From a virus: a stretch of DNA of 21,424 nucleotides. The position numbers and the translations under genes are program-made. The stretch is taken from positions 1 to 21,424 of IMG/VR virus record IMGVR_UViG_3300017739_000143; one strand, written 5' to 3'. Below, in pieces: positions 3,140 through 21,096 of this stretch (positions within the stretch are counted from its first letter, which is position 1; each line of letters starts with the position of its first letter). The notes below the pieces were generated by a model. The model searched no databases, was not told the DNA's origin, and saw only the letters and a list, made by a program, of their open reading frames with translations.

Positions 3140-3168
3140 ATTATACAGAATTTATACTTGTTTGTCAA
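3140..3168 (-). promoter_or_regulatory. Sigma-70-type promoter for the leftward operon
   Basis: On the minus strand TTGACA (3168-3163), 17-bp spacer, TATAAT (3145-3140): a perfect consensus. Transcription should start near 3133 and run into the genes from 3014 leftwards. Confidence 0.85.
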
Positions 3169-3220
3169 GAACTATTTTAAATTAACATAAGAAATTTTGT
3201 GTGTGGGGATATTTGAAGCG

Positions 3221-3271
3221 AAAAAAATGGAGAGAAAAGCGTGGGACTTGCCCTACTACTTCACTCTCCAT
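3221..3271 (-). terminator. Intrinsic terminator of the large RNA
   Basis: Minus strand: ATGGAGAG (3271-3264) pairs with CTCTCCAT (3234-3227), enclosing a GGG-CAAGT-CCC hairpin, and is followed directly by a T run at 3226-3221. Confidence 0.75.
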
Positions 3272-4202
3272 CCAAAGTTTTTGTTGTTTAAAGTGGTCGT
3301 GGCGGAATAATTCACGAACCTATCCACTGCGTAACGAGAGGTGATGGATATTACGAACTTCAATCTACGACTTGCGTCTATGGTATACTGCTCATTTCGC
3401 ATCACTTCTTTACTACTGTCGACTAATCGAGTGCGTGATTCTACAACATATCTGTTGAGTGAAGGTGCGACCTCCGTACTCTCACCAATCTCTTTCCAAC
3501 TTAATGGTAGCGACAAAATCGTGTCATACTGCCCACTCGTCCCGCAGTATGAGGTGGAAACCACTTTTGTTTCCTTACTCTCACTTGGCACACTATGTGC
3601 ACCAGCATATGTGTCTGCTTACTTCCGTAACACCCTAAGGTGGCAGACAACGAGGTTTGCTATTAAGAACTTTTCGAATTGACAGTTAAAACTGAATCTC
3701 CTCTAATAGTTCGAGCGTGGTTTCCTCACACTGGGGTTGATTGTATGGTCATAATCCACCCTGTTCAATTACCTCTGTTTTAGTAAACCCGAAGGTCGTA
3801 ACGCCCATTAAAACAGTAAAACAAATCGCTTTTATACTATCGAGATAGTGCTGGAGTCTCTTGGTTCGTTGTGCTTTGCTTATCGCCTTTGCTTTCGTAT
3901 TGCTACTAAGTTCGCAGGACTTATTGAAAGTATCCCCTCAACCCTTTACCGACCAGTTAATCGGGTTATGACTCTCTCCTTGCTGCGGAAGGTATGTCTC
4001 ATAACGACTCTCAAAAGCGGACATTATTTTCGGATAACGCTATCTCAAAATGTCTAAAGAGCATACGGCAGTGTTTAACGACTCGCCAGTCAGGGTAGAA
4101 AACAACTCTTGCTTATTTATTCGCTCTCCCTCCTCCGAAGAGTCTGGGGTCAATGCTAAATCATTTATTTTTACAATTTAGTGTTGTTTTCTTTGTTTCT
4201 GA
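3221..4202 (-). ncRNA. Large structured non-coding RNA, ~980 nt (GOLLD/ROOL-like class candidate)
   Basis: No convincing gene exists here on either strand, yet the stretch is bounded by a perfect promoter (4209-4237) and a terminator ending in a T run at 3226-3221. Read on the minus strand it is full of perfect local helices. Examples: a linker-free three-way junction at 3649-3612 (TGTCTGC/GCAGACA enclosing CACC-TTAG-GGTG and TTAC-GGAA-GTAA, the last a GNRA loop); CATACTGC/GCAGTATG at 3551-3544/3532-3525; GCACA-TAG-TGTGC at 3600-3588; CTGTTTTA/TAAAACAG enclosing a CTTCGG loop near 3820-3778; ACTAT-CTCG-ATAGT near 3846-3833; GAC-GCAA-GTC at 3378-3369. Size, phage setting, GNRA loops and strong expression signals recall giant RNAs such as GOLLD and ROOL, but I cannot recall their consensus well enough to assign one. 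Function unknown; virion-associated or RNA-cage roles are speculation. Confidence 0.78.
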
Positions 4203-4208
4203 ATATAT

Positions 4209-4237
4209 ATTATACTCACTTTCTAACCATTTGTCAA
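4209..4237 (-). promoter_or_regulatory. Sigma-70-type promoter of the large RNA (proximal copy)
   Basis: Minus strand TTGACA (4237-4232), 17-bp spacer, TATAAT (4214-4209), so the RNA starts near 4202. About 45 bases around it are nearly identical to the second copy at 4317-4345. Confidence 0.85.
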
Positions 4238-4316
4238 GAAGAATTTTAAGTTTTTTATCACTTGGTGATAGAAACTTTACTCAATCCCAACGGGGTTTTT
4301 TCTTGTTTATAAGTAT

Positions 4317-4345
4317 ATTATACTCACTTTACGACCATTTGTCAA
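4317..4345 (-). promoter_or_regulatory. Tandem duplicate promoter upstream of the large RNA (distal copy)
   Basis: Minus strand TTGACA (4345-4340), 17-bp spacer, TATAAT (4322-4317). The -35 box overlaps the stop codon of the nuclease-like gene. Transcripts from here would run through the proximal promoter into the large RNA; no T-run terminator on this strand lies between. Confidence 0.8.
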
Positions 4346-4758
4346 GAAGAACTTTGAATTATTTCGTGAATATCTTCACTTAATTCATCGAAAGTTAGCA
4401 CCTTGCTGGAGAACAACCCTGATGCCAAAGCATCGTTTGCCCACTTTCGTATGGTCTTTCCTCTTTCACTTTCCCAGTGTGCTCCCCCTAATATTACGAG
4501 TCCTCCACCGAATTGTTCAAGATTGTGTAGACAGAAAGGTAATTTCTCATCTACAGAACCACTTCCTCCCTGATATTTACACTCTATATGTAATTTATCT
4601 ACTACTATGTCAATTTTACACCTACTACTTCCGTAAAGATTAGTGTATGGCACTTGTGTTTCGAACTCTATGCCGTTCTTCTCTAGTAATAATTCACATT
4701 CTAACTCAAATGCTTTTCCATTATAGTTCGCTTTCGCTCCCTGTGTCAGTTTAGTCAT
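4342..4758 (-). CDS. PD-(D/E)XK nuclease superfamily protein
   Basis: I choose the ATG at 4758 because AAGGAG lies just before it; a start five codons earlier has none. The 138-residue product has the core of the superfamily: an N-terminal helix with an acidic residue (GKAFELECELLLEKNG, E18/E20), D50 in a beta strand (CKIDIVV), then E59-x-K61 (HIECKYQGG), matching D-x8-ExK, followed by a helix. This is a Mg-dependent nuclease fold found in restriction enzymes, resolvases and phage host-takeover nucleases. Length fits a stand-alone catalytic domain. Target DNA is unknown. The gene is transcribed alone, and its stop overlaps the RNA promoter. Confidence 0.72.
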   Translation of the reverse strand: MTKLTQGAKANYNGKAFELECELLLEKNGIEFETQVPYTNLYGSSRCKIDIVVDKLHIECKYQGGSGSVDEKLPFCLHNLEQFGGGLVILGGAHWESERGKTIRKWANDALASGLFSSKVLTFDELSEDIHEIIQSSS

Positions 4759-4777
4759 ATTGACTCCTTGCAAATTT

Positions 4778-4792
4778 GTATCGAAACGATAC
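4778..4792. repeat. Inverted repeat, possible operator
   Basis: GTATCG-AAA-CGATAC is a perfect 6+3+6 inverted repeat between the nuclease-like gene (start 4758) and a TATAAT-like box at about 4806-4801 (minus strand). A repressor site or a 5' UTR hairpin are both possible. Confidence 0.35.
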
Positions 4793-4842
4793 TACATTGC
4801 TATTATAGTGTTCGGAATTAAACACTTTAAGAAGGGCAGAGA

Positions 4843-4912
4843 TACTTTGCAGGTCAAGAGTCGAACTTGCTACTTCCATTTGGTGTGCTTCCGAAGACAC
4901 TTCTCCAAAGTA
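4843..4912 (-). other. tRNA-like fragment, possible decayed tRNA or attachment core
   Basis: Minus strand: a canonical T-arm (CAAG-TTCGACT-CTTG with the G53/C61 and TTCGA signature) and a canonical-looking anticodon loop (TTCGGAA, anticodon CGG) on an irregular stem occur in the right order. The 7-nt stretch after the T-arm has no partner at the 5' side for a normal acceptor stem. Instead TACTTTG/CAAAGTA closes the element and CTACTT/AAGTAG forms an alternative helix. It may be a degenerate tRNA, a tRNA-derived attP core, or a UTR structure. A working tRNA is unlikely. Confidence 0.3.
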
Positions 4913-4920
4913 GATACCCT

Positions 4921-4950
4921 TTTTAAAATGTGGTTACTTAGGGCAACCAC
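4921..4950 (-). terminator. Weak terminator-like hairpin after paralogue B
   Basis: Minus strand GTGGTT (4950-4945) pairs with AACCAC (4935-4930), 9-nt loop, followed by ATTTT. It lies 11 bases past the stop of the gene at 4961. The T run is short. Confidence 0.4.
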
Positions 4951-4960
4951 TCCTTGACTC

Positions 4961-5272
4961 TTATTGTGAGATTGCGTCAACCAATCTTTGAAGGTCTGCT
5001 TTACCTGCTTTTACTAGAGTTGGTAACTCGATGTCGAAGTGGTTAGCGATTGTGTCAACTAATTCTGTCTTCGATACTACTGGTTCACCTGATTTAGTAG
5101 TTCTAGGTTGTGCAATGTATACACCTTCTCTTGACAGTTTGGCAATGATACTTCTTGTAGTTTTGCCGAATTGCTGTGCAAGTGCGTCTACAGTTTCTCT
5201 TGTAGGGTTTTCAGTGTATGCTGTAGTCATTTCTGAAACCATTTCTTCTGTGTAGTTTTTAGCGTTTGCCAT
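4961..5272 (-). CDS. HTH-like/SAP-like small protein (paralogue B)
   Basis: This 103-residue form starts at the ATG at 5272, which has GGGAGAA before it and its own promoter at 5300-5328. It matches the gene at 173-487 along its length: YTEEMV start, RETVDALAQQFGKTTRSIIA core, KLSREGVY, TKSGEPV linker, and a C-terminal helical module (LVDTIANHFDIELPTLVKAG). A longer frame begins at a GTG at 5368 with AGGAGG and another promoter at 5395-5423, adding 32 residues; both forms could be made. A nucleic-acid-binding role is inferred from the HTH-like and SAP-like pattern only. Confidence 0.75.
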   Translation of the reverse strand: MANAKNYTEEMVSEMTTAYTENPTRETVDALAQQFGKTTRSIIAKLSREGVYIAQPRTTKSGEPVVSKTELVDTIANHFDIELPTLVKAGKADLQRLVDAISQ

Positions 5273-5299
5273 TGTATTTCTCCCAAAATATGTATTTAT

Positions 5300-5328
5300 A
5301 TTATATCCGATGTCGTATAACTTGTCAA
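5300..5328 (-). promoter_or_regulatory. Internal sigma-70-type promoter, short form of paralogue B
   Basis: Minus strand TTGACA (5328-5323), 17-bp spacer, TATAAT (5305-5300). It lies inside the 5' part of the longer reading frame from 5368. Confidence 0.82.
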
Positions 5329-5394
5329 GGACTATTTCTGAAAACTTTGGTTTGTATGTATTTTTCACTTTTTCCTCCTTTTGATTATAAATAT

Positions 5395-5423
5395 ATTATA
5401 ACCGCTTTGACAGGTATTGTCAA
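5395..5423 (-). promoter_or_regulatory. Sigma-70-type promoter upstream of the GTG start at 5368
   Basis: Minus strand TTGACA (5423-5418), 17-bp spacer, TATAAT (5400-5395), followed by AGGAGG and GTG at 5368. Confidence 0.82.
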
Positions 5424-5441
5424 GACTAAATTCGAATTATT

Positions 5442-5597
5442 TTAGTCCCAGTCGCCATTTACCCAAGAGAGTGCACATCCGCCGACGACAGAACAGATGA
5501 ACAGGATTGGACTTTCTGCCCAAAGCAATGGAACGATTGTCGCAAGTAAAGCGTACATAAATAGTCCTGCTAGAAAGTATACTATTGCGTTTTCCAT
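5442..5597 (-). CDS. Two-TM membrane peptide, 51 aa
   Basis: Start chosen at the ATG 5597 because AAGGAG precedes it and the promoter at 5629-5657 lies just upstream; a longer frame would begin inside or before that promoter. The product (MENAIVYFLAGLFMYALLAT...) has two hydrophobic segments, about residues 4-22 and 28-44, and an acidic tail ending NGDWD. The size and hairpin topology fit a phage membrane effector or holin-like peptide, but no family is recognised. Confidence 0.65.
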   Translation of the reverse strand: MENAIVYFLAGLFMYALLATIVPLLWAESPILFICSVVGGCALSWVNGDWD

Positions 5598-5628
5598 ATT
5601 ACTTTTGTCTCCTTTTGAATATAAATAT

Positions 5629-5657
5629 ATTATACACACTTTGAATATGATTGTCAA
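5629..5657 (-). promoter_or_regulatory. Sigma-70-type promoter of the membrane peptide
   Basis: Minus strand TTGACA (5657-5652), 17-bp spacer, TATAAT (5634-5629). Confidence 0.85.
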
Positions 5658-10138: not shown

Positions 10139-10167
10139 TTGACATCAGATATAAAATTTGATATAAT
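10139..10167 (+). promoter_or_regulatory. Sigma-70-type promoter of the rightward main block
   Basis: TTGACA (10139-10144), 17-bp spacer, TATAAT (10162-10167). The start is expected at 10174, the A of the ATG. Confidence 0.85.
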
Positions 10168-10173
10168 TCTCCT

Positions 10174-10848
10174 ATGAATGAAACTTTTAGAGAATGGGCA
10201 GACGTTAATCAACTTTTTGAGTTAAATTATCAGAAATGCTACAATTATCGAGACTTCGATGACTTTGAAAAGCAATGGAAAGATATTTTCACGAAGTTCG
10301 GCTTACACAAAGAATCTTTTAATAATAAAGTATTACTAGATATCGGATGTGGGTCAAGACCTGCACTTTCTTATTTTAGTTCAGACAATGAAAAACATTG
10401 TGTGGAGCCTCTACTAGATGACCTTATGAAAGTAGAGAAAAGCAAGTACAATGTATTTCCAGGAAAGACTCCGTGGCATAACAAAGAAAACCTACCTAAT
10501 ACAAAAATTAAGGATTGGTTTACGGAGGAAGACTACAAATTACATTCAGTCCCTTACGAGACTTTAGTACCAGAGTTAAGGGGCAAAGTAGATTTTTTAC
10601 TTTGTTGGAATGTATTAGACCATGGCTATGATTGGAGAACAGGATTGAGTAATATGCTACTCTATCTAAAGAAGGGAGGTTTACTACTATTAGGAACCGA
10701 CTTCGACGCTCACAAGTATCATCTAGGTATAGACAATCCAGATTACTTAAAAGAATTGATTAGCTACAATTTTGAAATAATAAGTCCAAAGGTAGAACAC
10801 TCTCAACGATGGGATAGGGACTATATGGTACTAGCACGTAAAATATGA
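10174..10848 (+). CDS. Class I SAM-dependent methyltransferase
   Basis: The 224-residue protein has motif I LLDIGCGSRPALSY (about residues 54-67) for SAM binding, an acidic post-I strand (KHCVEPLL), motif IV-like DFLLCWNVLDHGYDW (about 139-153) and a GGLLLLGTDF strand. The fold is clear, the target is not; the lack of a DPPY motif argues against DNA N-methylation. Similar genes are common in marine T4-like phages. It probably starts a leaderless transcript and overlaps the next gene by 4 bases. Confidence 0.78.
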   Translation: MNETFREWADVNQLFELNYQKCYNYRDFDDFEKQWKDIFTKFGLHKESFNNKVLLDIGCGSRPALSYFSSDNEKHCVEPLLDDLMKVEKSKYNVFPGKTPWHNKENLPNTKIKDWFTEEDYKLHSVPYETLVPELRGKVDFLLCWNVLDHGYDWRTGLSNMLLYLKKGGLLLLGTDFDAHKYHLGIDNPDYLKELISYNFEIISPKVEHSQRWDRDYMVLARKI

Positions 10849-11312
10849 GTAAACCAACAGATATCGCAGTAAAAATGAGTCCAGAAGGGTTAGAGATAGC
10901 CAACGCATACTTAGAACTTGGGTCTACACAAGCTGTATGCATACGCCTAAATATAGATGAAAATACCGTGCAAGATTATTTAGGTAAGCGAGAGATTAAA
11001 CAATATATCGACCAAGTGTACCTGGACACGGGCTACAGAAATAGATTTAAGATAGCCCATGCACTAGACGATATAATAGATAAGAAGTTAGACGAAGCAG
11101 AAGAATCTCAAATTTATACTAACAAAGACATAGCCGACCTGCTCTCAATGGCACATAAAATGAGAATGGACGAAATAAAAGCTATGGCAGACTTGGAGAA
11201 AGCAAAAGCCTCCAATATTAAAAACCAAACAAATGTACAAATTAATAGTGATTTACCTTTTGGACAAGGTAACTATGGGAAACTCATGGAAAAACTATTA
11301 AAGGAGGAATAA
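10845..11312 (+). CDS. HTH protein, candidate small terminase subunit
   Basis: The 155-residue protein has an N-terminal helix-turn-helix (about residues 15-50: IANAYLELGSTQAVCIRLNI...NTVQDYLGKREI) and a long helical middle (YLDTGYRNRFKIAHALDDII, then KDIADLLSMAHKMRMDEIK). This arrangement, and the TGYRNR...HKMRMDE pattern, resembles small terminase subunits of marine phages, which bind the packaging site and feed DNA to the large subunit. No large terminase gene is in view, so the call is tentative. Confidence 0.5.
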   Translation: MSKPTDIAVKMSPEGLEIANAYLELGSTQAVCIRLNIDENTVQDYLGKREIKQYIDQVYLDTGYRNRFKIAHALDDIIDKKLDEAEESQIYTNKDIADLLSMAHKMRMDEIKAMADLEKAKASNIKNQTNVQINSDLPFGQGNYGKLMEKLLKEE

Positions 11313-11503
11313 TGATACATTTAAGCAGTTACATGCAAGAAGACAAACGCGCAGAAGTTTTCAAAAAGGATGGCCACTATGGTGCAACCTTTTATGATAA
11401 TGATGAAAGAGTTGGAGAAGAACTCTACGTAGGACACAGTGAATCGTATGCAGAGAATGCAGCAGAAAACTATGTTCTAGGAATCAAACAAGTTGGCGTA
11501 TAG
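11312..11503 (+). CDS. Hypothetical protein, 63 aa
   Basis: AAGGAGGAA precedes the ATG. The product (MIHLSSYMQEDKRAEVFKKD...) has a short beta sheet pattern followed by a helix with SYAENAAENYVLGI, a closing I have seen in small phage proteins of unknown role. It overlaps the iscU start by 11 bases. Confidence 0.6.
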   Translation: MIHLSSYMQEDKRAEVFKKDGHYGATFYDNDERVGEELYVGHSESYAENAAENYVLGIKQVGV

Positions 11504-11927
11504 TAAAGAAGTAGTAGAAAGGTTCGAACAAGTCTTAGCAAGTCCTAAGCAGTTCAGTGTGGGTCGCTTTGACCCAAATGACCCCGATGTAGCTACTGGT
11601 ATGACAGGAGCACCTGCATGTGGTGATGTCATGAAATTACAACTTAAACTAGACAAAGATGAAACAATCATTGATGTTAAGTTTAAAACCTACGGATGTG
11701 GAAGTGCTATAGCTTCTTCTACTATGTTCGTAGAATTACTAAAAGGTAAAACAATTGAAGAAGCAAAAGAGATTAAGGACAAAGACATAGCAGAAGCGTT
11801 ACAGCTTCCGCCTATCAAGTTACACTGCTCCGTTCTAGCTGAGGATTCTATTAAACAAGCAATCCAAAACTGGAAGGAGAAAAATGAAAATAATATGGAA
11901 ACAGTTCCACAAGATGATGAAATCTAA
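11493..11927 (+). CDS. iscU: IscU-like Fe-S cluster scaffold
   Basis: The frame opens at TTG 11493 with AGGA about 10 bases upstream, overlapping the previous gene. All hallmark residues are present: C43 and D45 (GAPACGDVMKLQ), C69 (KTYGCGSAIASS), H111-C112 (LHCSVLAED), and the chaperone-binding LPPIK (105-109; LPPVK in E. coli). IscU assembles [2Fe-2S] clusters on these Cys and passes them on with HscA/HscB. The first 25 residues are slightly longer than in E. coli and there is a polar 17-residue tail. It is next to an IscA-like gene, so the pair may boost cluster supply during infection. Catalytic completeness suggests it works. Confidence 0.9.
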   Translation: MAYSKEVVERFEQVLASPKQFSVGRFDPNDPDVATGMTGAPACGDVMKLQLKLDKDETIIDVKFKTYGCGSAIASSTMFVELLKGKTIEEAKEIKDKDIAEALQLPPIKLHCSVLAEDSIKQAIQNWKEKNENNMETVPQDDEI

Positions 11928-11961
11928 CCGAATACAAAATATTTGGCGAGAGGTATTATAG
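11884..11961 (+). CDS. Possible 25-aa peptide between iscU and iscA
   Basis: A well placed AAGGAG precedes this ATG, better than the sites of the flanking genes. The peptide (MKIIWKQFHKMMKSNRIQNI...) is basic and amphipathic; it begins inside iscU out of frame and ends 3 bases before the iscA start, so it could act by translational coupling. Confidence 0.35.
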   Translation: MKIIWKQFHKMMKSNRIQNIWREVL

Positions 11962-11964
11962 GAA

Positions 11965-12282
11965 ATGATAGATGTCACTAATGAAGCTTATACTAGACTT
12001 ATACAGAAAGCCGCGCACCAAGAGAACTTTGTTTTTAGACTTGGTATTACTGGGGGCGGCTGCGGTGGTATGGAGTATAGTTTTAATTTTAATAGTGAAA
12101 CTTATTCAAGTGATTTGGTTCTGGATTGGGGGCGTATAGCATTTCGCATAGACCCCAATTCAGCACCCTATTTGGAAGGCATAACCCTGGACTGGCAGGT
12201 AGAAGGATTAAATGAAGGATTTAAAATTATCAACCCAAAAGAAAAATACAGATGTGGATGTGGAGAAAGCATCGGCTTCTAG
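11965..12282 (+). CDS. iscA: IscA/HesB-type A-type Fe-S carrier
   Basis: The 105-residue protein has the three conserved Cys of A-type carriers: C33 in GITGGGCGGMEYSF and C97-x-C99 in YRCGCGESIGF. Length and order match IscA/ErpA/SufA. These proteins bind iron or [2Fe-2S]/[4Fe-4S] clusters and deliver them to client enzymes. HesB-like genes are known from marine phages. Lying behind an intact IscU it forms a minimal scaffold-carrier pair. Its last 71 bases overlap the next gene out of frame. Confidence 0.88.
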   Translation: MIDVTNEAYTRLIQKAAHQENFVFRLGITGGGCGGMEYSFNFNSETYSSDLVLDWGRIAFRIDPNSAPYLEGITLDWQVEGLNEGFKIINPKEKYRCGCGESIGF

Positions 12283-12448
12283 GAAAGTACTACAAGTAGT
12301 TAACCTAAGCCCCAGCGAGTCAATAGTAGAAAAGTTGACGGAAATTCATCCAATGAAACAAATCTTTTGGGCGTCTATTATTCAAGTAAGCGTGTTCTTT
12401 GGAATGCTCGGAATGTTTCAGGTAAACTCATGGATATTTTCAGCTTAA
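12212..12448 (+). CDS. Single-pass membrane protein, 78 aa
   Basis: AGAAGGA sits before the ATG, which lies inside iscA. A polar N-terminus (MKDLKLSTQKKNTDVDVEKA) is followed by a C-terminal hydrophobic helix (about 51-76). It overlaps the next gene by 19 bases. Not recognised; probable inner-membrane anchor. Confidence 0.55.
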   Translation: MKDLKLSTQKKNTDVDVEKASASRKVLQVVNLSPSESIVEKLTEIHPMKQIFWASIIQVSVFFGMLGMFQVNSWIFSA

Positions 12449-12723
12449 TCACAGATGTCGGAGCACCCATTGCGGCTGCTATAGTCATGGGTGGTTTTAT
12501 ATTCGTAATCATGCGACAAATTTTTGAAGGTGTGGTAAACTCAATCAACACCCTGAAGATGTTTACGGAAAGTCTCATAACTCGTGTCAAGACTATAAAT
12601 AATGACATGATAAAGTTAGACACAAGTGTAAGCGCAGCTCTTGAACTTACACCTGATTTGGACAGAATTGCAAGAGCAGAAAATTTCGTAGAAGACGGAA
12701 GTATTGATGTAAGGAGAGACTAA
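12430..12723 (+). CDS. TM plus coiled-coil protein, 97 aa
   Basis: I prefer ATG 12430 because the product then begins with a membrane helix (MDIFSLITDVGAPIAAAIVM...), as in the related gene at 12827. After the TM comes a helix with LKMFTESLITRVKTINNDMI, then a short acidic tail. The NNDMIKLD segment matches LDNDMIRLQ in 12827-13081, so the two appear to be diverged paralogues. Topology recalls BhlA/XhlA-type holin-associated proteins. Confidence 0.62.
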   Translation: MDIFSLITDVGAPIAAAIVMGGFIFVIMRQIFEGVVNSINTLKMFTESLITRVKTINNDMIKLDTSVSAALELTPDLDRIARAENFVEDGSIDVRRD

Positions 12724-12836
12724 TGGATGTAGTATCAGCTTGGGACAGTTTATCATATTGGGACGGTATATTATTTACGTTCTGGATAGGTCTATTATAT
12801 ACTTATAAAGTATGGATAGATAATAGATGGAAATAG
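12723..12836 (+). CDS. Membrane peptide, 37 aa
   Basis: Starts at TAATG overlap with the previous stop and overlaps the next start. The sequence (MDVVSAWDSLSYWDGILFTF...) is rich in Trp and Tyr with one hydrophobic segment. GGAG precedes it. Unknown role. Confidence 0.5.
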   Translation: MDVVSAWDSLSYWDGILFTFWIGLLYTYKVWIDNRWK

Positions 12837-13081
12837 TTGACGCGATTCAAAAATTTGGTTTCCCCGTGGTGGCAATGGTCGGTCTGGGATATTTCGTATA
12901 CTTTGTATGGACAACGATAACACAAGTAATCAATCCAACAGTAAAGGAAATGCATATGACTCTCATAAAGCTGATAGACCAAATACGTATGCTCGATAAC
13001 GATATGATTCGTTTACAGCAAAAGGTAAACACTGTTTTACAAATGAAAGAAAATGAAAAACAAAAACGACATAACAGGTGA
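12827..13081 (+). CDS. TM plus coiled-coil protein, 84 aa (holin-associated type)
   Basis: An N-terminal TM helix (about residues 10-32) leads into a long amphipathic helix (LIKLIDQIRMLDNDMIRLQQ) and a Lys/Arg tail. It is a paralogue of the 12430 gene. Such TM-coil proteins can be holin-like or spanin-adjacent, but their place just before csgF also allows a role around the secretion module. Inferred from topology only. Confidence 0.62.
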   Translation: MEIVDAIQKFGFPVVAMVGLGYFVYFVWTTITQVINPTVKEMHMTLIKLIDQIRMLDNDMIRLQQKVNTVLQMKENEKQKRHNR

Positions 13082-13667
13082 TAAACTTATAACAAAGCCT
13101 TCTGCCGCATACGCAGAAAACTATGACGCAGTCTTTCGCAGAGGACAGATACATCAAGACCGTAACTTTGATACTGACGGCTATGAACAAAGGCAAAAAG
13201 ATGAGAAGATTACAAATGGTGTAATGTTGGCACTTCTGTGCTTGTGTACTGCTTCAATCGCTTTTGACATGCAAGCTGACGAAATCAAACACAAATTTAA
13301 AAGTCCTTCATTTAGTGGAGTTGGAACATCCTCTCACTACTTAACTATTGACTCACAAGAAATAACAAAGAAGGACGCTGTAAAAGCTGAGATAAAAGCT
13401 TTGGCAGACGCAGCAAAGCGGGAAGAAGAAAACACAACTCTCGCAAGATTTATAAAGAACTTTGAAAGTAGAATATATGCACAGTTATCTCGACAGCTAG
13501 TTGATAGTTTGTTTGGAGAGAACCCTGCAGAAGAAGGGTCATTTCAGTTATTCGATAACTTAATCACTTGGACGAGTGATGGCATTACAATAACAATGAC
13601 CATATTTAATGAGGCAACTGGTGAGACAACTACTATTACTATCCCTATTGGGGACTTTGGTTTCTAG
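13053..13667 (+). CDS. csgF: CsgF-like curli assembly factor with N-terminal extension
   Basis: Residues about 75-204 follow CsgF: HKFKSPSFSGVGTSSHYLTI at the mature N-terminus, where E. coli CsgF has its FxFRNPxFGG motif that inserts in CsgG, then a helical middle (FIKNFESRIYAQLSRQLVDS) and a beta end (ITITMTIFNEATGETTTITI). In bacteria CsgF is exported and caps the CsgG pore, coupling secretion to fibre nucleation. The signal-like segment MLALLCLCTASIAFDMQA is internal (58-75), preceded by 57 polar residues. Either the true start is ATG 13224 or the protein has a cytoplasmic extension. It precedes csgG, with 59 bases of overlap. Confidence 0.85.
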   Translation: MKNKNDITGDKLITKPSAAYAENYDAVFRRGQIHQDRNFDTDGYEQRQKDEKITNGVMLALLCLCTASIAFDMQADEIKHKFKSPSFSGVGTSSHYLTIDSQEITKKDAVKAEIKALADAAKREEENTTLARFIKNFESRIYAQLSRQLVDSLFGENPAEEGSFQLFDNLITWTSDGITITMTIFNEATGETTTITIPIGDFGF

Positions 13668-14457
13668 TTGTGCAACGCACAGTGGTTATATATCACCGTG
13701 CATGACTAACCCCGATGGGGACTACAAAGACTTAACTACAATCATACGAAAGGCAGAGTGCTTCTCAGGTGCTGCTGTACTTGAAAAACCTGTCACAAAA
13801 GAAATACAATCCCTACCCTTACCCGCAAGAACGCCCGTTGTTGCTATCTATAAATTCGAAGACTTAACAGGACAAAGAAAATCAAGAGATGGAATCGCAG
13901 ATTTCTCAAGCGCTATGACACAAGCTCCAGAGGCTTATTTGATTCGTGCGTTGAAATCTAGTGGATTCTTTAAAGTAGTAGAAAGAAAAGGACTAGACCA
14001 TTTAACAAAAGAGCGTCAGTTGATTCGTTCTACTCGTGAGAGATTTGATGAGAAAGATAAACAGTTACCACTGCTGTATGCTGGTATCATCATTGAAGGG
14101 GGTATTGTAGATTACAATACTAATGTATTAACCGGGGGAGCTGGAGCCCGCTATTTAGGTATAGGAACTTCCAAGCAATATCGTGAGGATACAGTGGTGG
14201 TATCAATGAGGTTAGTTTCTGTGAGTACAGGAGAAATCTTATTGGACATCCTTACTTCAAAAGCAATCCTCTCCGTGGGAGTTAGTAATGATTATTTTAG
14301 ATTTACTACTGAGAATGACTTAGTGGAAGTTGAGAGTGGAAACTCTATGAACGAACCTAAGTTCATTGCTTTACAAGCGGCTATTGAAACTTCAGTAGTA
14401 GAGCTTGTACAAAAAGGACAGGAAAAAGGGTACTGGAAGTACTATTTGGGAGACTAA
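13609..14457 (+). CDS. csgG: CsgG-like outer-membrane curli secretion lipoprotein
   Basis: The 282-residue protein has a lipoprotein signal with lipobox LVSSC (Cys21) and matches CsgG throughout: VVAIYKFEDLTGQ, ADFSSAMTQAPEAYLIRALK, FFKVVERKGLDHLTKERQ, IIEGGIVDYNTNVLTGGAGA, RYLGIGTSKQY, VSVSTGEILLDILTSKAILS, NEPKFIALQAAIETSV. CsgG forms a nonameric outer-membrane channel for unfolded curlins. Length is close to the 277 of E. coli. In the constriction loop the Phe is kept (ADFSS), but the region of E. coli Tyr51 and Asn55 reads RDGIAD. The signal-peptide codons lie out of frame inside the end of csgF. Confidence 0.92.
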   Translation: MRQLVRQLLLLSLLGTLVSSCATHSGYISPCMTNPDGDYKDLTTIIRKAECFSGAAVLEKPVTKEIQSLPLPARTPVVAIYKFEDLTGQRKSRDGIADFSSAMTQAPEAYLIRALKSSGFFKVVERKGLDHLTKERQLIRSTRERFDEKDKQLPLLYAGIIIEGGIVDYNTNVLTGGAGARYLGIGTSKQYREDTVVVSMRLVSVSTGEILLDILTSKAILSVGVSNDYFRFTTENDLVEVESGNSMNEPKFIALQAAIETSVVELVQKGQEKGYWKYYLGD

Positions 14458-14458
14458 A

Positions 14459-15175
14459 ATGAGGATATTAATAGCCTTGTTTTTATCAGTTGGTCTGTTC
14501 GCAGACAATGAAATCTATATTGACCAAACAGGAAATAATGCTAGTATTGACTTGGAACAACTCGGCTCTAACAATATAATTGGTGGTGACGATGCAACTG
14601 CAGGTTCAATGACAAAAGCAATCTTGAATGGAACAACAATGGTCTTAGACATCAATCAAATAGGAAGCTCCAATAAATTTCTTACCGATGGAATACTTGG
14701 TGATAATTTTACTGGCTTCTTTGAATTTGATGGAGATTCAAACGTGTGGGACTTTAGCATGGACACAACCGGGCTAAACACAGCTGACGGCAATAATATT
14801 AACATTGACGTTACTGGTTCACTCAACATTGCAGATATAGATATCGGTGAAGATGATGCCGCAAACTATCTAGACATTGATTGGATTATCGATGGAGATA
14901 GTAATGAAGCAGAAGTAGATATAGATGTAGATTATGCAACTATATTCTGGGACGTTCTTGGCGACAGCAACGATATAACTTTTATCCAATCTGGATATGG
15001 AGCTAGTTCAAGCGATGCTAAATACTTCTACCTCGACTTAGAGGGAAGTAATAATACTGCGGTTATCAAACAGCAGTCAACATTAGCAGCCGACTGGTTG
15101 AAAATTGAAAGTAATGCGTCTAATAGCAATATTTGTGTTATTCAGAATGATGGTGGGACTTCCGCTTCATGCTGA
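14459..15175 (+). CDS. Curlin-repeat protein, likely secreted subunit
   Basis: Start at ATG 14459, with GGAG before it, gives a signal peptide MRILIALFLSVGLFA and a 238-residue protein. Repeats of about 20-30 residues carry the curlin pattern of Ile/Gln and Gly-Asn turns: IDQTGNNASIDLEQLGSNN, INQIGSSNK, FDGDSNVWDF, IDGDSNEAEV, VLGDSNDITFIQSG, LEGSNNTAVIKQQ. Many positions are Asp where curlins have Asn or Gln, making it very acidic. Two Cys close the chain. Curlins are passed through CsgG and polymerise into cross-beta fibres, so this is the probable cargo. Whether it forms amyloid is untested. Confidence 0.8.
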   Translation: MRILIALFLSVGLFADNEIYIDQTGNNASIDLEQLGSNNIIGGDDATAGSMTKAILNGTTMVLDINQIGSSNKFLTDGILGDNFTGFFEFDGDSNVWDFSMDTTGLNTADGNNINIDVTGSLNIADIDIGEDDAANYLDIDWIIDGDSNEAEVDIDVDYATIFWDVLGDSNDITFIQSGYGASSSDAKYFYLDLEGSNNTAVIKQQSTLAADWLKIESNASNSNICVIQNDGGTSASC

Positions 15176-16214
15176 TATAGGAAGCATTACAGAACTACGT
15201 GGAGTAGGGCAAGTACTTAGAGACAAGCCCTACAACACGGACTTAGGATTTGACATTGAGCAAATGGATGATGTGCGTACAGCTAATGGGCGATTAGGTA
15301 TCACATTCATAGACGATAGTAAAGTCCGACTTACAGAGCATAGTAAACTTATAATAGACAAAGTAATCTTTGACCCCGACCCTAGCAAGTCGCAGATGTC
15401 AATGAAGTTTGCAAGTGGAACAGCTCGTTTTATTACTGGTGGTATTGGCAAGATTAATAAACAAAATATTAAGATTGAAACACCGACTTCTCAGATTGCT
15501 ATTCGAGGCACGGACTTTACTGTGACAGTGGATGAGTTAGGAAGAAGTTTAGTAATATTACTACCAGACGATATGGGACTTCCAAGTGGCGAGATTGTAG
15601 TAGCAACAGCCATGGGAGAAGTCATACTCAATAAACCTTATGAATCAACAGTAACTAGTATGTGGGAAAGTACACCTACTGCACCGATGATACTAGACTT
15701 GACACTGGACATCATAGACAACATGCTCATAGTGAGCCCACCTAAAAATGAAGAAGAAGAAACTGCAGGAGAAGTTGGAAGTGATGAGTCTGATGACAAT
15801 ATTCTTGATGTTGACCTTCTCGCTTACGACGGTTTAGATATAGATTATTTAGAAGAAGACTTATCTTTTAATGAACTTGACATAGACTATTTAGATGTAA
15901 ACTTTCTCGAAGACTTGTTGGAAGTTATCGAGGAACTAGATGCACTTGCAGTAAAAGAATCAAGAGGTACACAAGCTTTTTCAGAATTTGATGTACAAGG
16001 TACATTATTCGGGCAAGACCCAACAACACAGATTTTAACATTTGGTGACGCAGAAAAGATTACAATAATTCGTAGCGTTACTCAATCCGTACAACTAGAA
16101 CTCAATGGTGAGACAAGCTATAATATAATAATTGAACAAGATGGTAAAAGCTATAACATTATTCTTAACTCTGGTGACAACTCCAGTATTCGCATCCGTC
16201 AATCTTCAGGTTGA
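15114..16214 (+). CDS. FecR-domain secreted protein with curlin-like C-terminus
   Basis: ATG 15114 is preferred over TTG 15105; it gives the signal peptide MRLIAIFVLFRMMVGLPLHA, encoded inside the end of the curlin gene. Residues about 22-170 form a FecR domain (ITELRGVGQVLRDKPYN..., TSQIAIRGTDFTVTVDELGR). An acidic linker with EEEE and GSDESDD (about 210-225) and DIDY repeats (250-285) follow. The last 40 residues (YNIIIEQDGKSYNIILNSGD, SIRIRQSSG) look like curlin strands. Stand-alone FecR proteins of this type occur beside adenylate/guanylate cyclases and curli genes in bacteria. A cell-surface or cargo role is inferred. Confidence 0.8.
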   Translation: MRLIAIFVLFRMMVGLPLHADIGSITELRGVGQVLRDKPYNTDLGFDIEQMDDVRTANGRLGITFIDDSKVRLTEHSKLIIDKVIFDPDPSKSQMSMKFASGTARFITGGIGKINKQNIKIETPTSQIAIRGTDFTVTVDELGRSLVILLPDDMGLPSGEIVVATAMGEVILNKPYESTVTSMWESTPTAPMILDLTLDIIDNMLIVSPPKNEEEETAGEVGSDESDDNILDVDLLAYDGLDIDYLEEDLSFNELDIDYLDVNFLEDLLEVIEELDALAVKESRGTQAFSEFDVQGTLFGQDPTTQILTFGDAEKITIIRSVTQSVQLELNGETSYNIIIEQDGKSYNIILNSGDNSSIRIRQSSG

Positions 16215-16578
16215 TATACCTTGGGACTTCGAGCAGATGCAACAAGACGCATCTAAAATAGAAGCTTCTGAAGTAACGTATCACTTTGACTTTGAGAATG
16301 AAAAACACAAAACCTTTTTAATACTAAACATACTAGACGTTGCTTCTACTATATATGCTATGGAAAATAGAGATACTTTATATGAAACAAATTTTCTACT
16401 TCCAAGGAAACCAAGTCCTGAAGAGCTAATTATACAGAAGGCTGTAGTAATATCTACAATGAGCTACTTGGGTTTGTTTAGTACTCACCCAGACGACCAA
16501 TGGTACATTAATGGACTAAATGCAACATTAGGCATAGTAATAGTAAGTAATTTATATAGTATAAACAAATATGAATAA
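16141..16578 (+). CDS. Exported or membrane protein with DUF5658-like core
   Basis: The ATG at 16141 gives MVKAITLFLTLVTTPVFA, a clean signal peptide; a TTG 9 bases upstream would add three residues. The mature part has a polar segment, then NILDVASTIYAMENRDTLYE (around 65-85) and two weak membrane helices (about 103-118 and 128-142). The LDxxST-xxA...ET-N-LL-PS pattern resembles DUF5658-type small membrane proteins. It sits between the FecR and cyclase genes and overlaps both. Function unknown. Confidence 0.62.
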   Translation: MVKAITLFLTLVTTPVFASVNLQVDIPWDFEQMQQDASKIEASEVTYHFDFENEKHKTFLILNILDVASTIYAMENRDTLYETNFLLPRKPSPEELIIQKAVVISTMSYLGLFSTHPDDQWYINGLNATLGIVIVSNLYSINKYE

Positions 16579-18352
16579 ACTAATCACAATTGTACTAGCA
16601 ATGGGACTTCTTATATGGAATCCCTATCCTTTCCAAATTTTAGAACTTAAAACATTTGACTACTTAATTATGAATACAGAAGTAGTTCAAAATGAGAACA
16701 TTCTCATAGTTGACATTGACGAAGAAACAGTCAAGACTTATGAAGGATGGCCATTACCGAGAAGTGTCTATGGAGATGCTATAATGCAGACCGAGGCAAT
16801 TCCAGGCATTACAGTATTAATGCCAAACAAAGACTTACGAGGGCCAATGCAAGATGATTACTTTATACGCAGGCTAGAAGTAAGACCTACTGTCCTTGCT
16901 AGTGCAGCATCGACACAAGTAACTGGAACTAATCCTCATGTAGGAACTGCCCAGTTAGGAGAGGACCCAACACCATGGCTATATCAGTATCCAGGAATTT
17001 TACCTACCGAATCTACTCTGGAGTCAAAAACAAAGGGGCTCGGACTAGTAACCGCTACGCCGGAAATAGACGGGGTTACTCGTCGTATTCCCCTAGTCGT
17101 AAACGTAGAGTCAAAACTTTACCCAAGCTTCGCACTCGAACTCTTAAGAGTCGCAGTAGGAGACCCTTCGTACCAGCTAAAAACAACAGAAGAAGGCGTT
17201 ACTTGGGTTAGAATACCAAACTACCCACTTATGAATACAGATGCGAATGGTCGTATCTTTTTAAATTGGAACACGAACTTTTATAGACAAAGCTTACTAG
17301 AATATTTACAACAGCCGATTGATGCACCTTTTGTAATTATCGGCACGACTGCAGAGGGCATAACAAACCCTGTGCCGACCCCTGCGGGGGCTAAATACCC
17401 ACATGAAATTCAAGCAAATATATTACACAATCTTATCAACGGCACTGCACCTTCTGCACCGACCTGGACTCTTTCTGCTCAGCTTGCCTACAGTTTACTT
17501 GGCCTCACCTTATTGGCTCTTACGGTCTCTCGAGTCTATCTTTCTGTACTAGCTTTAGCACTAGTTGTAGCAGGAGCGTTCTATGGAATGGGGTATGCCT
17601 ATAAATCTTCCTACTTACTTAACCTTAATGGTGTCGTAGTTATCTCGATTTTGTACTGGGGGTATCATACATTCCTGAGTTTCCTTTCCGAGTATCGTCA
17701 GAAACTTCGAATCAAACAACAATTCGGCACGTACGTAAGTCCCGACCTTGTCAAAAAATTACAGGAAGACCCATCATTACTGAGATTGGGTGGGTTCACG
17801 GAACAACTAACTTTTCTTTTTTCTGACATCAGAGGATTTACACCGATTTCAGAAAAATATCAAAAAAATCCACAAGGACTTACGAGCCTCATTAATCGTT
17901 TCCTTGACAACCAGACTGAGATAATTCTCAAGCATGGAGGTACAATCGATAAGTATATGGGAGATTGCATCATGGCTTTCTGGGGAGCTCCGCTTCCTGA
18001 CGAGAATCATATAGAGAATGCAACAAAAGCGGCTATTGAAATGAGAATAGCTTTGGAGAAATTAAATGAAACACTTAAAGATGAAGGCCTTGACCAAATT
18101 AATACAGGTGCTGGCATCAATTCAGGTCCTTGCGTGGTTGGCAACTTTGGCTCTACTACTCGTTTCGATTACAGCGTCCTTGGCGATGCGGTTAATCTGG
18201 CTGCAAGGTTAGAGTCAAGTTGCAAAGATTATGATGCAGATTTAATAATATCTGAACACAGTTTAGTAGATGGTTATGAGTACGAGTTTCTTGACGAGGT
18301 AACTGTAAAAGGCAAGTCGGAGCCAGTAAAAATCTATACCATACGAAAATAA
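16571..18352 (+). CDS. CHASE2-domain class III adenylate cyclase
   Basis: The 593-residue protein has an N-terminal TM, an extracytoplasmic CHASE2 sensor (about 25-295: LIVDIDEETVKTYEGWPLPR, IGTTAEGITNPVPTPAGAKY), three TM helices (about 299-372) and a class III cyclase domain (about 405-593). The catalytic set is complete: metal Asp419 (FSDIRGFT) and Asp465 (YMGDCIMAFWG), Lys461 (TIDKYMGD) and an Asp in FDYSVLGDAVN, which favour ATP over GTP, and the NLAARLES Asn/Arg. It would make cAMP in response to a periplasmic signal. FecR-CHASE2 cyclase pairs are known in bacteria; a phage copy is unusual. No terminator follows; a new promoter starts at 18356. Confidence 0.92.
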   Translation: MNKLITIVLAMGLLIWNPYPFQILELKTFDYLIMNTEVVQNENILIVDIDEETVKTYEGWPLPRSVYGDAIMQTEAIPGITVLMPNKDLRGPMQDDYFIRRLEVRPTVLASAASTQVTGTNPHVGTAQLGEDPTPWLYQYPGILPTESTLESKTKGLGLVTATPEIDGVTRRIPLVVNVESKLYPSFALELLRVAVGDPSYQLKTTEEGVTWVRIPNYPLMNTDANGRIFLNWNTNFYRQSLLEYLQQPIDAPFVIIGTTAEGITNPVPTPAGAKYPHEIQANILHNLINGTAPSAPTWTLSAQLAYSLLGLTLLALTVSRVYLSVLALALVVAGAFYGMGYAYKSSYLLNLNGVVVISILYWGYHTFLSFLSEYRQKLRIKQQFGTYVSPDLVKKLQEDPSLLRLGGFTEQLTFLFSDIRGFTPISEKYQKNPQGLTSLINRFLDNQTEIILKHGGTIDKYMGDCIMAFWGAPLPDENHIENATKAAIEMRIALEKLNETLKDEGLDQINTGAGINSGPCVVGNFGSTTRFDYSVLGDAVNLAARLESSCKDYDADLIISEHSLVDGYEYEFLDEVTVKGKSEPVKIYTIRK

Positions 18353-18355
18353 TAC

Positions 18356-18384
18356 TTGACATCTTGTTGATATTTTGATATAAT
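18356..18384 (+). promoter_or_regulatory. Sigma-70-type promoter after the cyclase
   Basis: TTGACA (18356-18361), 17-bp spacer, TATAAT (18379-18384). The 5' UTR holds a TGTGGA-AATA-TCCACA hairpin (18394-18409) before AAAGGGG and ATG 18429. Confidence 0.85.
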
Positions 18385-18428
18385 TTTCATAAGTGTGGAA
18401 ATATCCACAAGATGTAAAGGGGACTAAC

Positions 18429-19796: not shown

Positions 19797-19857
19797 GTTA
19801 ATACCCAGTTAGAGTTCTCTTCTTCAGTCAATGAGTGGGGGACTCTACACTTTAATT

Positions 19858-20049
19858 ATGGCAGCACGTAGAAAAAAATCAAGAAGGAAGGTAGCAAGAA
19901 AATCACGTAACGTACCTACTAATAAAAAACTCTATGCAAGAGTAAAAGCAGCAACAAAAAGAAAGTTCGCAGTATATCCTAGCGCATATGCAAATGCATG
20001 GTTAGTTAGAGAATACAAGAAAAGAGGCGGGAGGTACAGACGTGGCTAG
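19858..20049 (+). CDS. DUF5872-like basic protein, 63 aa
   Basis: ATG 19858 gives MAARRKKSRRKVARKSRNVP, a Lys/Arg block, then the conserved VYPSAYANAWLVREYKKRGG motif typical of a protein group shared by cyanophages, pelagiphages and algal viruses. The ATG lacks a strong ribosome-binding site; a start 9 codons upstream is also weak. Probably DNA-binding or virion-packaged, inferred from charge. Confidence 0.7.
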   Translation: MAARRKKSRRKVARKSRNVPTNKKLYARVKAATKRKFAVYPSAYANAWLVREYKKRGGRYRRG

Positions 20050-20335
20050 TACCGGACTTAAAAAATGGTTTAAAGAAAAATGGGTAGATATTGGAAGACC
20101 AAAAAAGAAAGGCAGATATCAACCTTGTGGAAGAGGGAAAGCTAAGACAGGAAGAAAAGGCTATCCTAAATGTGTTCCTTTAGCTCGTGCTAGAACTATG
20201 AGTAAAGCTCAAAAACGTTCAGCAGTAAGGAGAAAAAGAAAAGTAGCACAGGGCGTTGGAGGAAAACCTACTAACGTTCGTACTTATGCAAAGAGAGGCA
20301 AAAAACGAAAAACTACACGAAGAAAAAGAAGATAA
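20042..20335 (+). CDS. DUF5872-like basic protein, 97 aa, GTG start
   Basis: Starts at GTG 20042 inside the previous gene, with GGGAGG at the right distance. The N-terminus GLKKWFKEKWVDIGRPKKKG, then the YQPCGRGKAKTGRKGYPKCV Cys pair, are the hallmarks of DUF5872; the last 45 residues are almost all Lys, Arg, Gly and Ala. Possible condensing or DNA-binding protein. Confidence 0.75.
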   Translation: MASTGLKKWFKEKWVDIGRPKKKGRYQPCGRGKAKTGRKGYPKCVPLARARTMSKAQKRSAVRRKRKVAQGVGGKPTNVRTYAKRGKKRKTTRRKRR

Positions 20336-20382
20336 TCTCCATTAAGCAGCTAGACCACAAACTAGAGCTAGCTTATACACTT

Positions 20383-20523
20383 ATGGGGGTAGAGAAAGCA
20401 GTAGCATCGTTAATAATAGACTCAAGACAGAAGTTAACAAATTTAAAGAAACTGAAAGATTATGCATCAATGAACAAATGCGTCTTTCGAGACGAGCAAT
20501 TAAAAAAGCTTGTAGGAGAATAA
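20383..20523 (+). CDS. Small helical protein, 46 aa or longer
   Basis: The frame to 20523 reads MGVEKAVASLIIDSRQKLTN... from ATG 20383. The protein-like, heptad-bearing frame continues upstream (QLDHKLELAYTL) without an ATG, GTG or TTG until an ATT at 20341, so the ATG call may be too short. The next gene starts 2 bases after the stop. Confidence 0.5.
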   Translation: MGVEKAVASLIIDSRQKLTNLKKLKDYASMNKCVFRDEQLKKLVGE

Positions 20524-20524
20524 A

Positions 20525-20788
20525 ATGGCTAGAGGCGGTTTTTTAAGCGGACCTACTGGTGTTCACAGCACACAGAAAATCCGTAAACACAAACTCAAAA
20601 GAGGAGTTACTAGAGACATGAATGCAGCAGCAGGAGCTACTGTAAATAGCAGAAAAGCAGGAAGTATGGAAGCAATGAGATACGCATCTGCACCAAAAGC
20701 TATCGGTCCTAGATTCGGTAAAACAAAGAATCCTAAAAAAGCTAGATTCAGCAAAAAAGGACATAGCAGAATATTACGTAGGAGGTAG
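20525..20788 (+). CDS. Small basic protein, 87 aa
   Basis: GGAG precedes this ATG. The product (MARGGFLSGPTGVHSTQKIR...) is rich in Lys, Arg, Gly and Ala with MNAAAGATVNSRKAGSMEAM in the middle and ends KKGHSRILRRR. It belongs to the same run of basic late-type proteins; family not named. Confidence 0.65.
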   Translation: MARGGFLSGPTGVHSTQKIRKHKLKRGVTRDMNAAAGATVNSRKAGSMEAMRYASAPKAIGPRFGKTKNPKKARFSKKGHSRILRRR

Positions 20789-20790
20789 AA

Positions 20791-21096
20791 ATGCCTACAC
20801 GTAAGAAAGGACGTAAAAGAGACCCTAGATTAAAAAGAGCAGGAGTCTCAGGTTTCAACAAACCAAAAAGAACACCAGGTCACAGAACTAAATCACATAT
20901 AGTTGTGGCAAAGGTGGGCGGTAAAATCAAAACAATAAGATTTGGACAGAAAGGAGCTAAGACTGCGGGCAAACCTAAAGCAGGAGAGTCACGTAGAATG
21001 AAGATGAAGCGTAAAAGTTTCAAAGCTAGACATAGAAGAAACATTGCTAAAGGCAAAATGTCAGCTGCTTACTGGGCAAATAAGGTAAAATGGTAA
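20791..21096 (+). CDS. DUF6321-like basic protein, 101 aa
   Basis: AGGAGG precedes the ATG. The C-terminal half has TPGHRTKSHIVVAKVGGKIK, TIRFGQKGAKTAGKPKAGES and SFKARHRRNIAKGKMSAAYW, the core of DUF6321 proteins seen in phages and algal viruses. The N-terminus is a Lys/Arg block. The role is unknown; the conserved core suggests a specific fold rather than just charge. Confidence 0.78.
   Translation: MPTRKKGRKRDPRLKRAGVSGFNKPKRTPGHRTKSHIVVAKVGGKIKTIRFGQKGAKTAGKPKAGESRRMKMKRKSFKARHRRNIAKGKMSAAYWANKVKW

Follow-up and report, generated by a model that had tools for sequence, protein, structure and literature searches.

The last gene of a curli unit of a marine phage (viral record IMGVR_UViG_3300017739_000143) probably encodes a class III adenylate cyclase whose CHASE2 sensor lies outside the inner membrane and may report an envelope state linked to curli export. 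The observed basis of this reading comprises the domains of the protein, its catalytic residues, the selection acting on it, its operon position and its constant company of a curli cassette. In the window, by which is meant the whole stretch of 21,424 nucleotides that was analysed, the + strand carries, in this order, a methyltransferase-like gene, terS, IscU, IscA, two small related ORFs, CsgF, CsgG, a curlin-repeat gene, a FecR-domain gene, a 148-aa ORF and the cyclase, which is the final gene of the unit. The features referred to below are as follows:

10139 to 10167, + strand: consensus sigma70 promoter heading the unit, a perfect 12/12 match to TTGACA-17-TATAAT
10845 to 11312, + strand: small terminase subunit, T5-like (phrog_3802, E 1e-39; tblastn to T5-like phages)
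11493 to 12282, + strand: IscU-like and IscA-like iron-sulphur genes (PF01592, E 1e-39; PF01521, E 1e-11)
12367 to 13081, + strand: two related small ORFs upstream of csgF, of 118 and 84 aa (ORF calls), each showing a single hydrophobic stretch on visual inspection
13053 to 13667, + strand: CsgF (PF10614, E 3e-18)
13609 to 14457, + strand: CsgG outer-membrane pore (PF03783, E 2e-48)
14405 to 15175, + strand: curlin-repeat protein (PF07012, E 1e-4)
15105 to 16214, + strand: FecR-domain protein of 369 aa (PF04773, E 3e-11; phrog_37870)
16132 to 16578, + strand: small ORF of 148 aa between FecR and the cyclase, its end overlapping the cyclase start
16571 to 18352, + strand: CHASE2-class III nucleotidyl cyclase of 593 aa (ORF; Pfam CHASE2 and Guanylate_cyc; phrog_35576, E 2e-160)
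16592 to 17512, + strand: CHASE2 sensor region, residues 8-314 (Pfam PF05226, E 7e-32, 111 bits)
17801 to 18343, + strand: cyclase catalytic domain, residues 411-591, with D419, K461, D465, S535, N542 and R546 (Pfam PF00211, residue counts in 163 relatives, alignments to 3r5g and 1wc1)
18167 to 18175, + strand: D533, Y534 and S535, the last being the true base-selecting position (alignments and residue counts)
18356 to 18384, + strand: consensus sigma70 promoter directly 3' of the cyclase, opening the next unit, a perfect 12/12 match with TG before the -10 element

The cyclase ORF (16571-18352) is a single uninterrupted reading frame, and both of its domains score far above the curated Pfam cut-offs: CHASE2 reaches 111 bits against 26.3, with membrane segments on both sides by hydropathy, and Guanylate_cyc (PF00211) reaches 72.9 bits against 21.9 (E 3e-20), covering positions 7-181 of the 183-position profile. 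An earlier sequence-only reading had named a CHASE2 sensor, which the match over residues 8-314 bears out. It had also counted three transmembrane helices; this number has to be revised, since hydropathy gives four hydrophobic segments, at about residues 3-21, 301-322, 322-344 and 346-372, one being N-terminal and three separating CHASE2 from the cyclase domain. In an AlphaFold2 model generated from a 48-sequence alignment (mean pLDDT 89.9, pTM 0.67), helices at residues 2-16, 300-318, 322-345 and 353-385 agree with these segments, and the cyclase half matches the PDB structures of CyaB, CyaC, Cya2 and OaPAC. With hydrophobic segments on either side, CHASE2 would be periplasmic, the topology would be N-in, CHASE2-out and cyclase-in, and the enzyme presumably acts as a homodimer. 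Whole-gene dN/dS (Nei-Gojobori) lies between 0.08 and 0.18 in 8 of 8 pairs of relatives and, by region, between 0.11 and 0.21 in CHASE2 and between 0.03 and 0.13 in the cyclase domain, with some pairs being near saturation at synonymous sites; such low values in both regions indicate that both halves are maintained by selection.

The protein is placed among the class III nucleotidyl cyclases by the PF00211 match over the whole domain together with the two metal-binding Asp, the Asn and the Arg. Residues D419, K461, D465, N542 and R546 are near-invariant, single exceptions aside, in 82 viral and 81 genome-contig relatives. The viral set comprises the cyclases of 80 IMG/VR loci and those of HTVC008M and Melnitz. 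For the genome-contig set, an ORF was obtained from 81 of 82 loci, and the set is not purely chromosomal: L093, L094, L095, L116 and L181/L182 carry or adjoin curli clusters (L093 and L182 being one contig), and some are clearly phage. The metal Asp (D419 and D465) and the transition-state Asn and Arg (N542 and R546) thus stand as first read. The adenine-selecting Lys/Asp pair survives in its first member only: Lys461 is present, and the second base-selecting position is Ser535, which aligns with the Thr of P. aeruginosa CyaB (3r5g) and of CyaC (1wc1), the Asp that had been seen being D533, two residues before it. Position 535 is occupied by Ser in 80 of the 82 viral relatives, the exceptions being Melnitz (Asp) and L057 (a short ORF, unaligned there), and by Ser in 69 and Thr in 12 of the 81 genome-contig relatives. 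A csgG-led search added 40 divergent phage cyclases, about 33% identical to that of the window, which also keep the catalytic residues and have Ser (24), Thr (13) or a gap (3) at the base position. Since Ser is found here in the window and in nearly all viral relatives, the Lys/Asp reading is wrong; as judged from the alignments, the base pocket is Lys/Ser and closest to the Lys/Thr cyclases CyaC and CyaB.

Specificity for ATP is described as depending mainly on Lys together with Asp or Thr (PMC7384201), and of this adenylate-type pair the window has K461, with a residue at 535 that is neither Asp nor Thr. Ser could act like Thr at this position. As the pocket is not the textbook Lys/Asp or Lys/Thr, the identity of the product rests on homology, from which cAMP is predicted with high confidence; the cyclase as such is very likely active. 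Production of another cyclic nucleotide, either cCMP or cUMP, as by Pycsar enzymes, or cGMP, is improbable: even though the catalytic domain is hit by the PycC models of PADLOC (best E 5e-28) and one of the highest-scoring relatives of solved structure is the guanylate cyclase Cya2 (2w01), the PycC models are class III cyclase models that match related cyclases in general, and the conserved Lys461 with Ser or Thr at 535 aligns with the adenylate cyclases CyaB and CyaC. The residue at the base position defines class IIIb, and in a bicarbonate- or CO2-sensing cyclase of that type the signal would reach the enzyme through its catalytic domain, either instead of CHASE2 or in addition to it. A Thr at this position is said to predict bicarbonate control among sAC-like cyclases (PMC3383692), and CyaC has Thr at the aligned position. 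Such sensing is very unlikely here: the window residue is Ser, a bicarbonate response is not something that sequence reveals, and a Marchantia cyclase identified by a search with CyaC is described as not stimulated by bicarbonate (PMC5159850).

The adenylate cyclase is carried by a phage whose terS matches T5-like phages (PHROG, tblastn). Contigs of the same kind encode a TerL matching Pectobacterium phage My1 at 49% and a DNA polymerase matching Proteus phage PM135 at 45%, in addition to T5-like portal, prohead protease/capsid, major tail and tape-measure proteins. The cyclase is accordingly phage-encoded, as had been proposed, and its carrier is a T5-like siphophage lineage, distinct from HTVC008M (T4-like) and from HTVC023P-type podophages. 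The curli module is reported from myophages and podophages (PMC9599517, PMC7029224, PMC9004378), and no paper naming a T5-like carrier was found by searches of the literature on curli, csgG and marine, T5-like or siphovirus phages. As for the host, one sister contig is binned with a Ca. Pelagibacter MAG, and tRNA genes, sought as a host hint, are absent from the window and from nine sister-contig stretches. The IscU of the window is 58-60% identical to that of other Alphaproteobacteria versus about 30-42% (mostly about 35%) to SAR11 genomes, so the host of this phage may not be SAR11. The IscU/IscA-like genes (11493-12282) are themselves phage-borne and share a unit with terS and the curli genes, and IscU co-diverges with the cyclase.

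The borders of this unit are marked by promoters. TTGACA-17-TATAAT with at most 2 mismatches occurs 17 times in the window versus 5.0 by chance, and eight sites in the 21 kb are perfect, including the one at 10139-10167, which precedes the first gene of the unit, the one at 18356-18384 and sites in the region 3140-5657. Among relatives, a promoter matching at 11 or 12 of 12 positions follows the cyclase within the 120 bases scanned in 75 of 79, versus 1 of 395 mononucleotide shuffles. Twenty-one loci hold terS plus DNA before it; in 17 of these a promoter lies no more than 150 bases from the start of the terS ORF (L006 is an 18th, slightly further in), in 20 a promoter follows the cyclase (L066 being the exception), and in 15 there is none inside the unit. 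The bounding promoters show that the cyclase closes a sigma70-driven unit, and, as far as promoters tell, cAMP-CRP would thus not be needed for its transcription. CRP-like sites (TGTGA-N6-TCACA, at most 2 mismatches) number 9 in the window versus a chance mean of 11.3; together with the consensus sigma70 promoters on both flanks of the unit, this speaks against the earlier idea that cAMP controls the phage's own genes. Following the post-cyclase promoter, an inverted repeat, TGTGGA-N4-TCCACA, is located at 18394-18409, and it also occurs in L003, L004, L005, L009, L013 and L025 among the 28 relatives listed. Further downstream, at 19831-21096, there are four very basic (Arg/Lys-rich) small ORFs, which shift place among relatives and one of which matches phrog_7595, occurring in roseophages and cyanophages.

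If cAMP is made, its receptor might be a CRP-type regulator of the host, through which the phage would reprogramme host transcription. A host survey covered the cNMP-binding domain (PF00027) and, among cyclases, those of class III. Of 191 genomes from the class Alphaproteobacteria, 144 have the domain, versus 14 of 198 genomes of what is presumably the Pelagibacteraceae, the family of the Ca. Pelagibacter MAG and of one cultured SAR11 host (Fisher p about 3e-47, the genomes not being independent). Twelve of these 14 share one kind of large ORF, one has a complete CRP-like regulator and one (G026) has two large proteins; in the one scanned of the twelve (L192 1998-4586), cNMP-binding is joined to acyltransferase and GDSL-lipase domains, suggesting a possible cAMP-responsive enzyme. 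Class III cyclases are present in 2 of the 198 SAR11-family genomes, both on phage-type contigs, of which one has a T5-like terS and the other has curli genes together with a terminase-like ORF. With so few cNMP-binding proteins, and class III cyclases only on phage-type contigs, a SAR11 host shows no sign of an ordinary cAMP circuit on either side. Searches of the literature on SAR11 and cAMP gave no paper stating that CRP is absent from SAR11. PF00027 is likewise absent from 19 phage records, namely those of HTVC008M and Melnitz (complete) and 17 IMG/VR contigs. The scans comprised one set of 12 records, these two plus ten contigs that are mostly or all partial, and one set of 8, with G006 in both.

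Control of a host CRP, as first suggested, is therefore doubtful, and we regard it as rather unlikely: the frequency of the domain in the class, the one complete regulator in the family and the affinity of IscU (up to 60% to other Alphaproteobacteria versus mostly about 35% to SAR11), which would allow for another host, are set against the 184 of 198 family genomes that have no such domain and against CRP-like sites at chance level in the window. The near-absence of known cAMP receptors and class III cyclases in the SAR11 family implies either an unrecognised receptor or other hosts or purposes. As a long shot, hosts of the SAR11 type, almost all of which have neither class III cyclases nor cNMP-binding proteins, could be supplied by the phage with a private cAMP circuit, comprising both the source of cAMP and its own receptor. 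The best candidates for the latter are the two small membrane proteins encoded upstream of csgF, a pair that nearly always accompanies the cassette, and a circuit of this kind, if real, could gate the curli pore or time lysis.

A histidine kinase has been placed in the pelagiphage curli cluster (PMC9599517), and by position the small ORFs upstream of csgF would be the 'HK' of that account. Eight small ORFs taken from the window and from HTVC008M and Melnitz, the pair upstream of csgF making up most of them and neighbours the rest, gave no histidine-kinase match at E up to 1. The 148-aa ORF (16132-16578) has no Pfam or PHROG match. The curlin-repeat ORF has TTG as its mechanical start, and an ATG with a GGGAGA stretch upstream is present at 14459. 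Membership in a Pycsar (PycC) system, which we take to mean a cyclase beside a dedicated effector gene, was considered and rejected, as the five neighbouring ORFs scanned gave no effector match against PADLOC and the PycC models match nothing beyond the catalytic domain that such cyclases share.

The company of the cyclase is constant across phages. A csgG-led scan yielded 273 relatives, of which the best 80 were kept, some being the same contigs as in the cyclase-led set. Among these best 80 of 273, all 49 csgG loci with at least 5 kb downstream are accompanied on the same strand by curlin, FecR and a cyclase, counted as presence of a cyclase match and not as intactness, and the two small ORFs upstream of csgF are found in 41 and 43, respectively, of the 43 loci whose DNA extends far enough. 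The window has the same order, with csgF, csgG, curlin and FecR preceding the cyclase on one strand. Rank correlations of pairwise identities (20 to 62 loci per gene pair, the T4-like L001 and L002 being left out) are high within the cassette, at 0.76 for CsgG-FecR and 0.67 for curlin-FecR; those of the cyclase are 0.74 with IscU and 0.52 with terS, and 0.24 with FecR and 0.12 with CsgG. The last two values, compared with that for CsgG-FecR, argue against a specific protein contact with FecR. Cassette types A, B and C were set by identity to the window, with FecR cut at 58 and 55% and CsgG at 60%, and the 148-aa ORF mostly accompanies type A. In quick trees with SH-aLRT support only, each type occupies one side of a branch of the FecR tree (support 81, 84 and 98), whereas on the cyclase tree the labels need 9 changes, of which no fewer than 6 for A and 7 for B are required by the starred branches. 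Phages with no T5-like terS nearby have a CsgG 63-69% identical to that of the window and a cyclase only about 33% identical. By these sequence comparisons, the curli-FecR cassette has been repeatedly swapped beside a resident cyclase that is always present.

That a cyclase should be so constant while its cassette is exchanged is read here as selection for having both, without a close-fitting FecR-CHASE2 contact. Were the cyclase a passenger, kept only through linkage to the curli cassette, it would be expected to adjoin the cassette, as it always does, and most of the SAR11 family has no known receptor for its product; but both domains are under strong purifying selection, the cassette has been replaced beside the cyclase several times, and none of the 49 testable csgG loci has no cyclase match, scored as presence. 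A similar CsgG next to a cyclase of about 33% identity, together with cassette replacement, indicates that linkage alone did not carry the cyclase, and a mere passenger is most improbable. The decoupled evolution suggests that the pairing is held by selection on function, not by linkage alone. The sequence-only reading had the cyclase respond to something outside the inner membrane, possibly the FecR or curlin products; the genetic tie to these genes holds in 49 of 49 csgG loci, and it is a sequence-specific FecR-CHASE2 contact that the swaps speak against. They do not weigh against the sensing of some general product of curli traffic.

In the explanation favoured here, the cyclase would be made as the last product of a sigma70-driven operon with terS, the two iron-sulphur proteins, CsgF, CsgG, curlin and FecR. 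During infection the curli pore and fibre would assemble while the cyclase sits in the inner membrane, and a change of the periplasm or envelope linked to export, such as a build-up of curlin or FecR or envelope stress, would be the input to CHASE2, which would pass the signal via the membrane helices to the dimeric cyclase and so alter the rate of cAMP production. The sensing of a curli-related envelope state is put forward tentatively, with somewhat less than even confidence. Points against the explanation as a whole are that FecR adjoins only 6 of 58 chromosomal-type relatives and that the phage records searched contain no cNMP-binding domain, which is also rare in the SAR11 family.

The presence of FecR and an adenylate cyclase in the T8SS (curli) clusters of pelagiphages is already described (PMC9599517, 2022), and the gene is annotated in the records of HTVC008M (AGE60353.1) and Melnitz (QZI94833.1); new here are the residue correction, the T5-like carrier, the operon borders, the cassette swapping and the receptor survey. 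With these two phages the window shares the order csgF-csgG-curlin-FecR-(gene)-cyclase, and its cyclase is 38.5% identical to that of HTVC008M and 35.5% to that of Melnitz over 99% of the query. Unlike the carriers of the published pelagiphage clusters, the window phage is T5-like, and neither a T4-like myophage nor an HTVC023P-type podophage; a further difference from the HTVC008M and Melnitz clusters is that terS and iscU/iscA share its unit. In the Melnitz cyclase (L002 12001-13794), the base position is Asp and the catalytic Asn is replaced by Ser, and the enzyme may be inactive or altered. Outside this group, CyaC (1wc1) and P. aeruginosa CyaB (3r5g) align with the window protein at all catalytic positions and superimpose on the cyclase half of the model with an rmsd of about 2 A, but they have Thr at the position of Ser535 and other sensor domains. 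The CHASE2 adenylate cyclases of Alphaproteobacteria and Campylobacterota resemble it in having CHASE2, membrane segments and a class III domain, and the window cyclase is about 32-43% identical to the genome-contig relatives other than the phage contig L093. In Campylobacterota, CHASE2 cyclases are described (PMC9239204) as sharing clusters with a phosphodiesterase, a TPR protein and an outer-membrane FecR protein, and the upstream neighbours of the 58 chromosomal-type relatives include FecR in 6 cases, an ABC transporter in 13 and a cNMP-binding protein in 5. Unlike these chromosomal-type enzymes, the phage cyclase is tied to csgF, csgG and curlin. The coupling of virus-borne second-messenger synthesis to amyloid export is a widespread trait of ocean phages.
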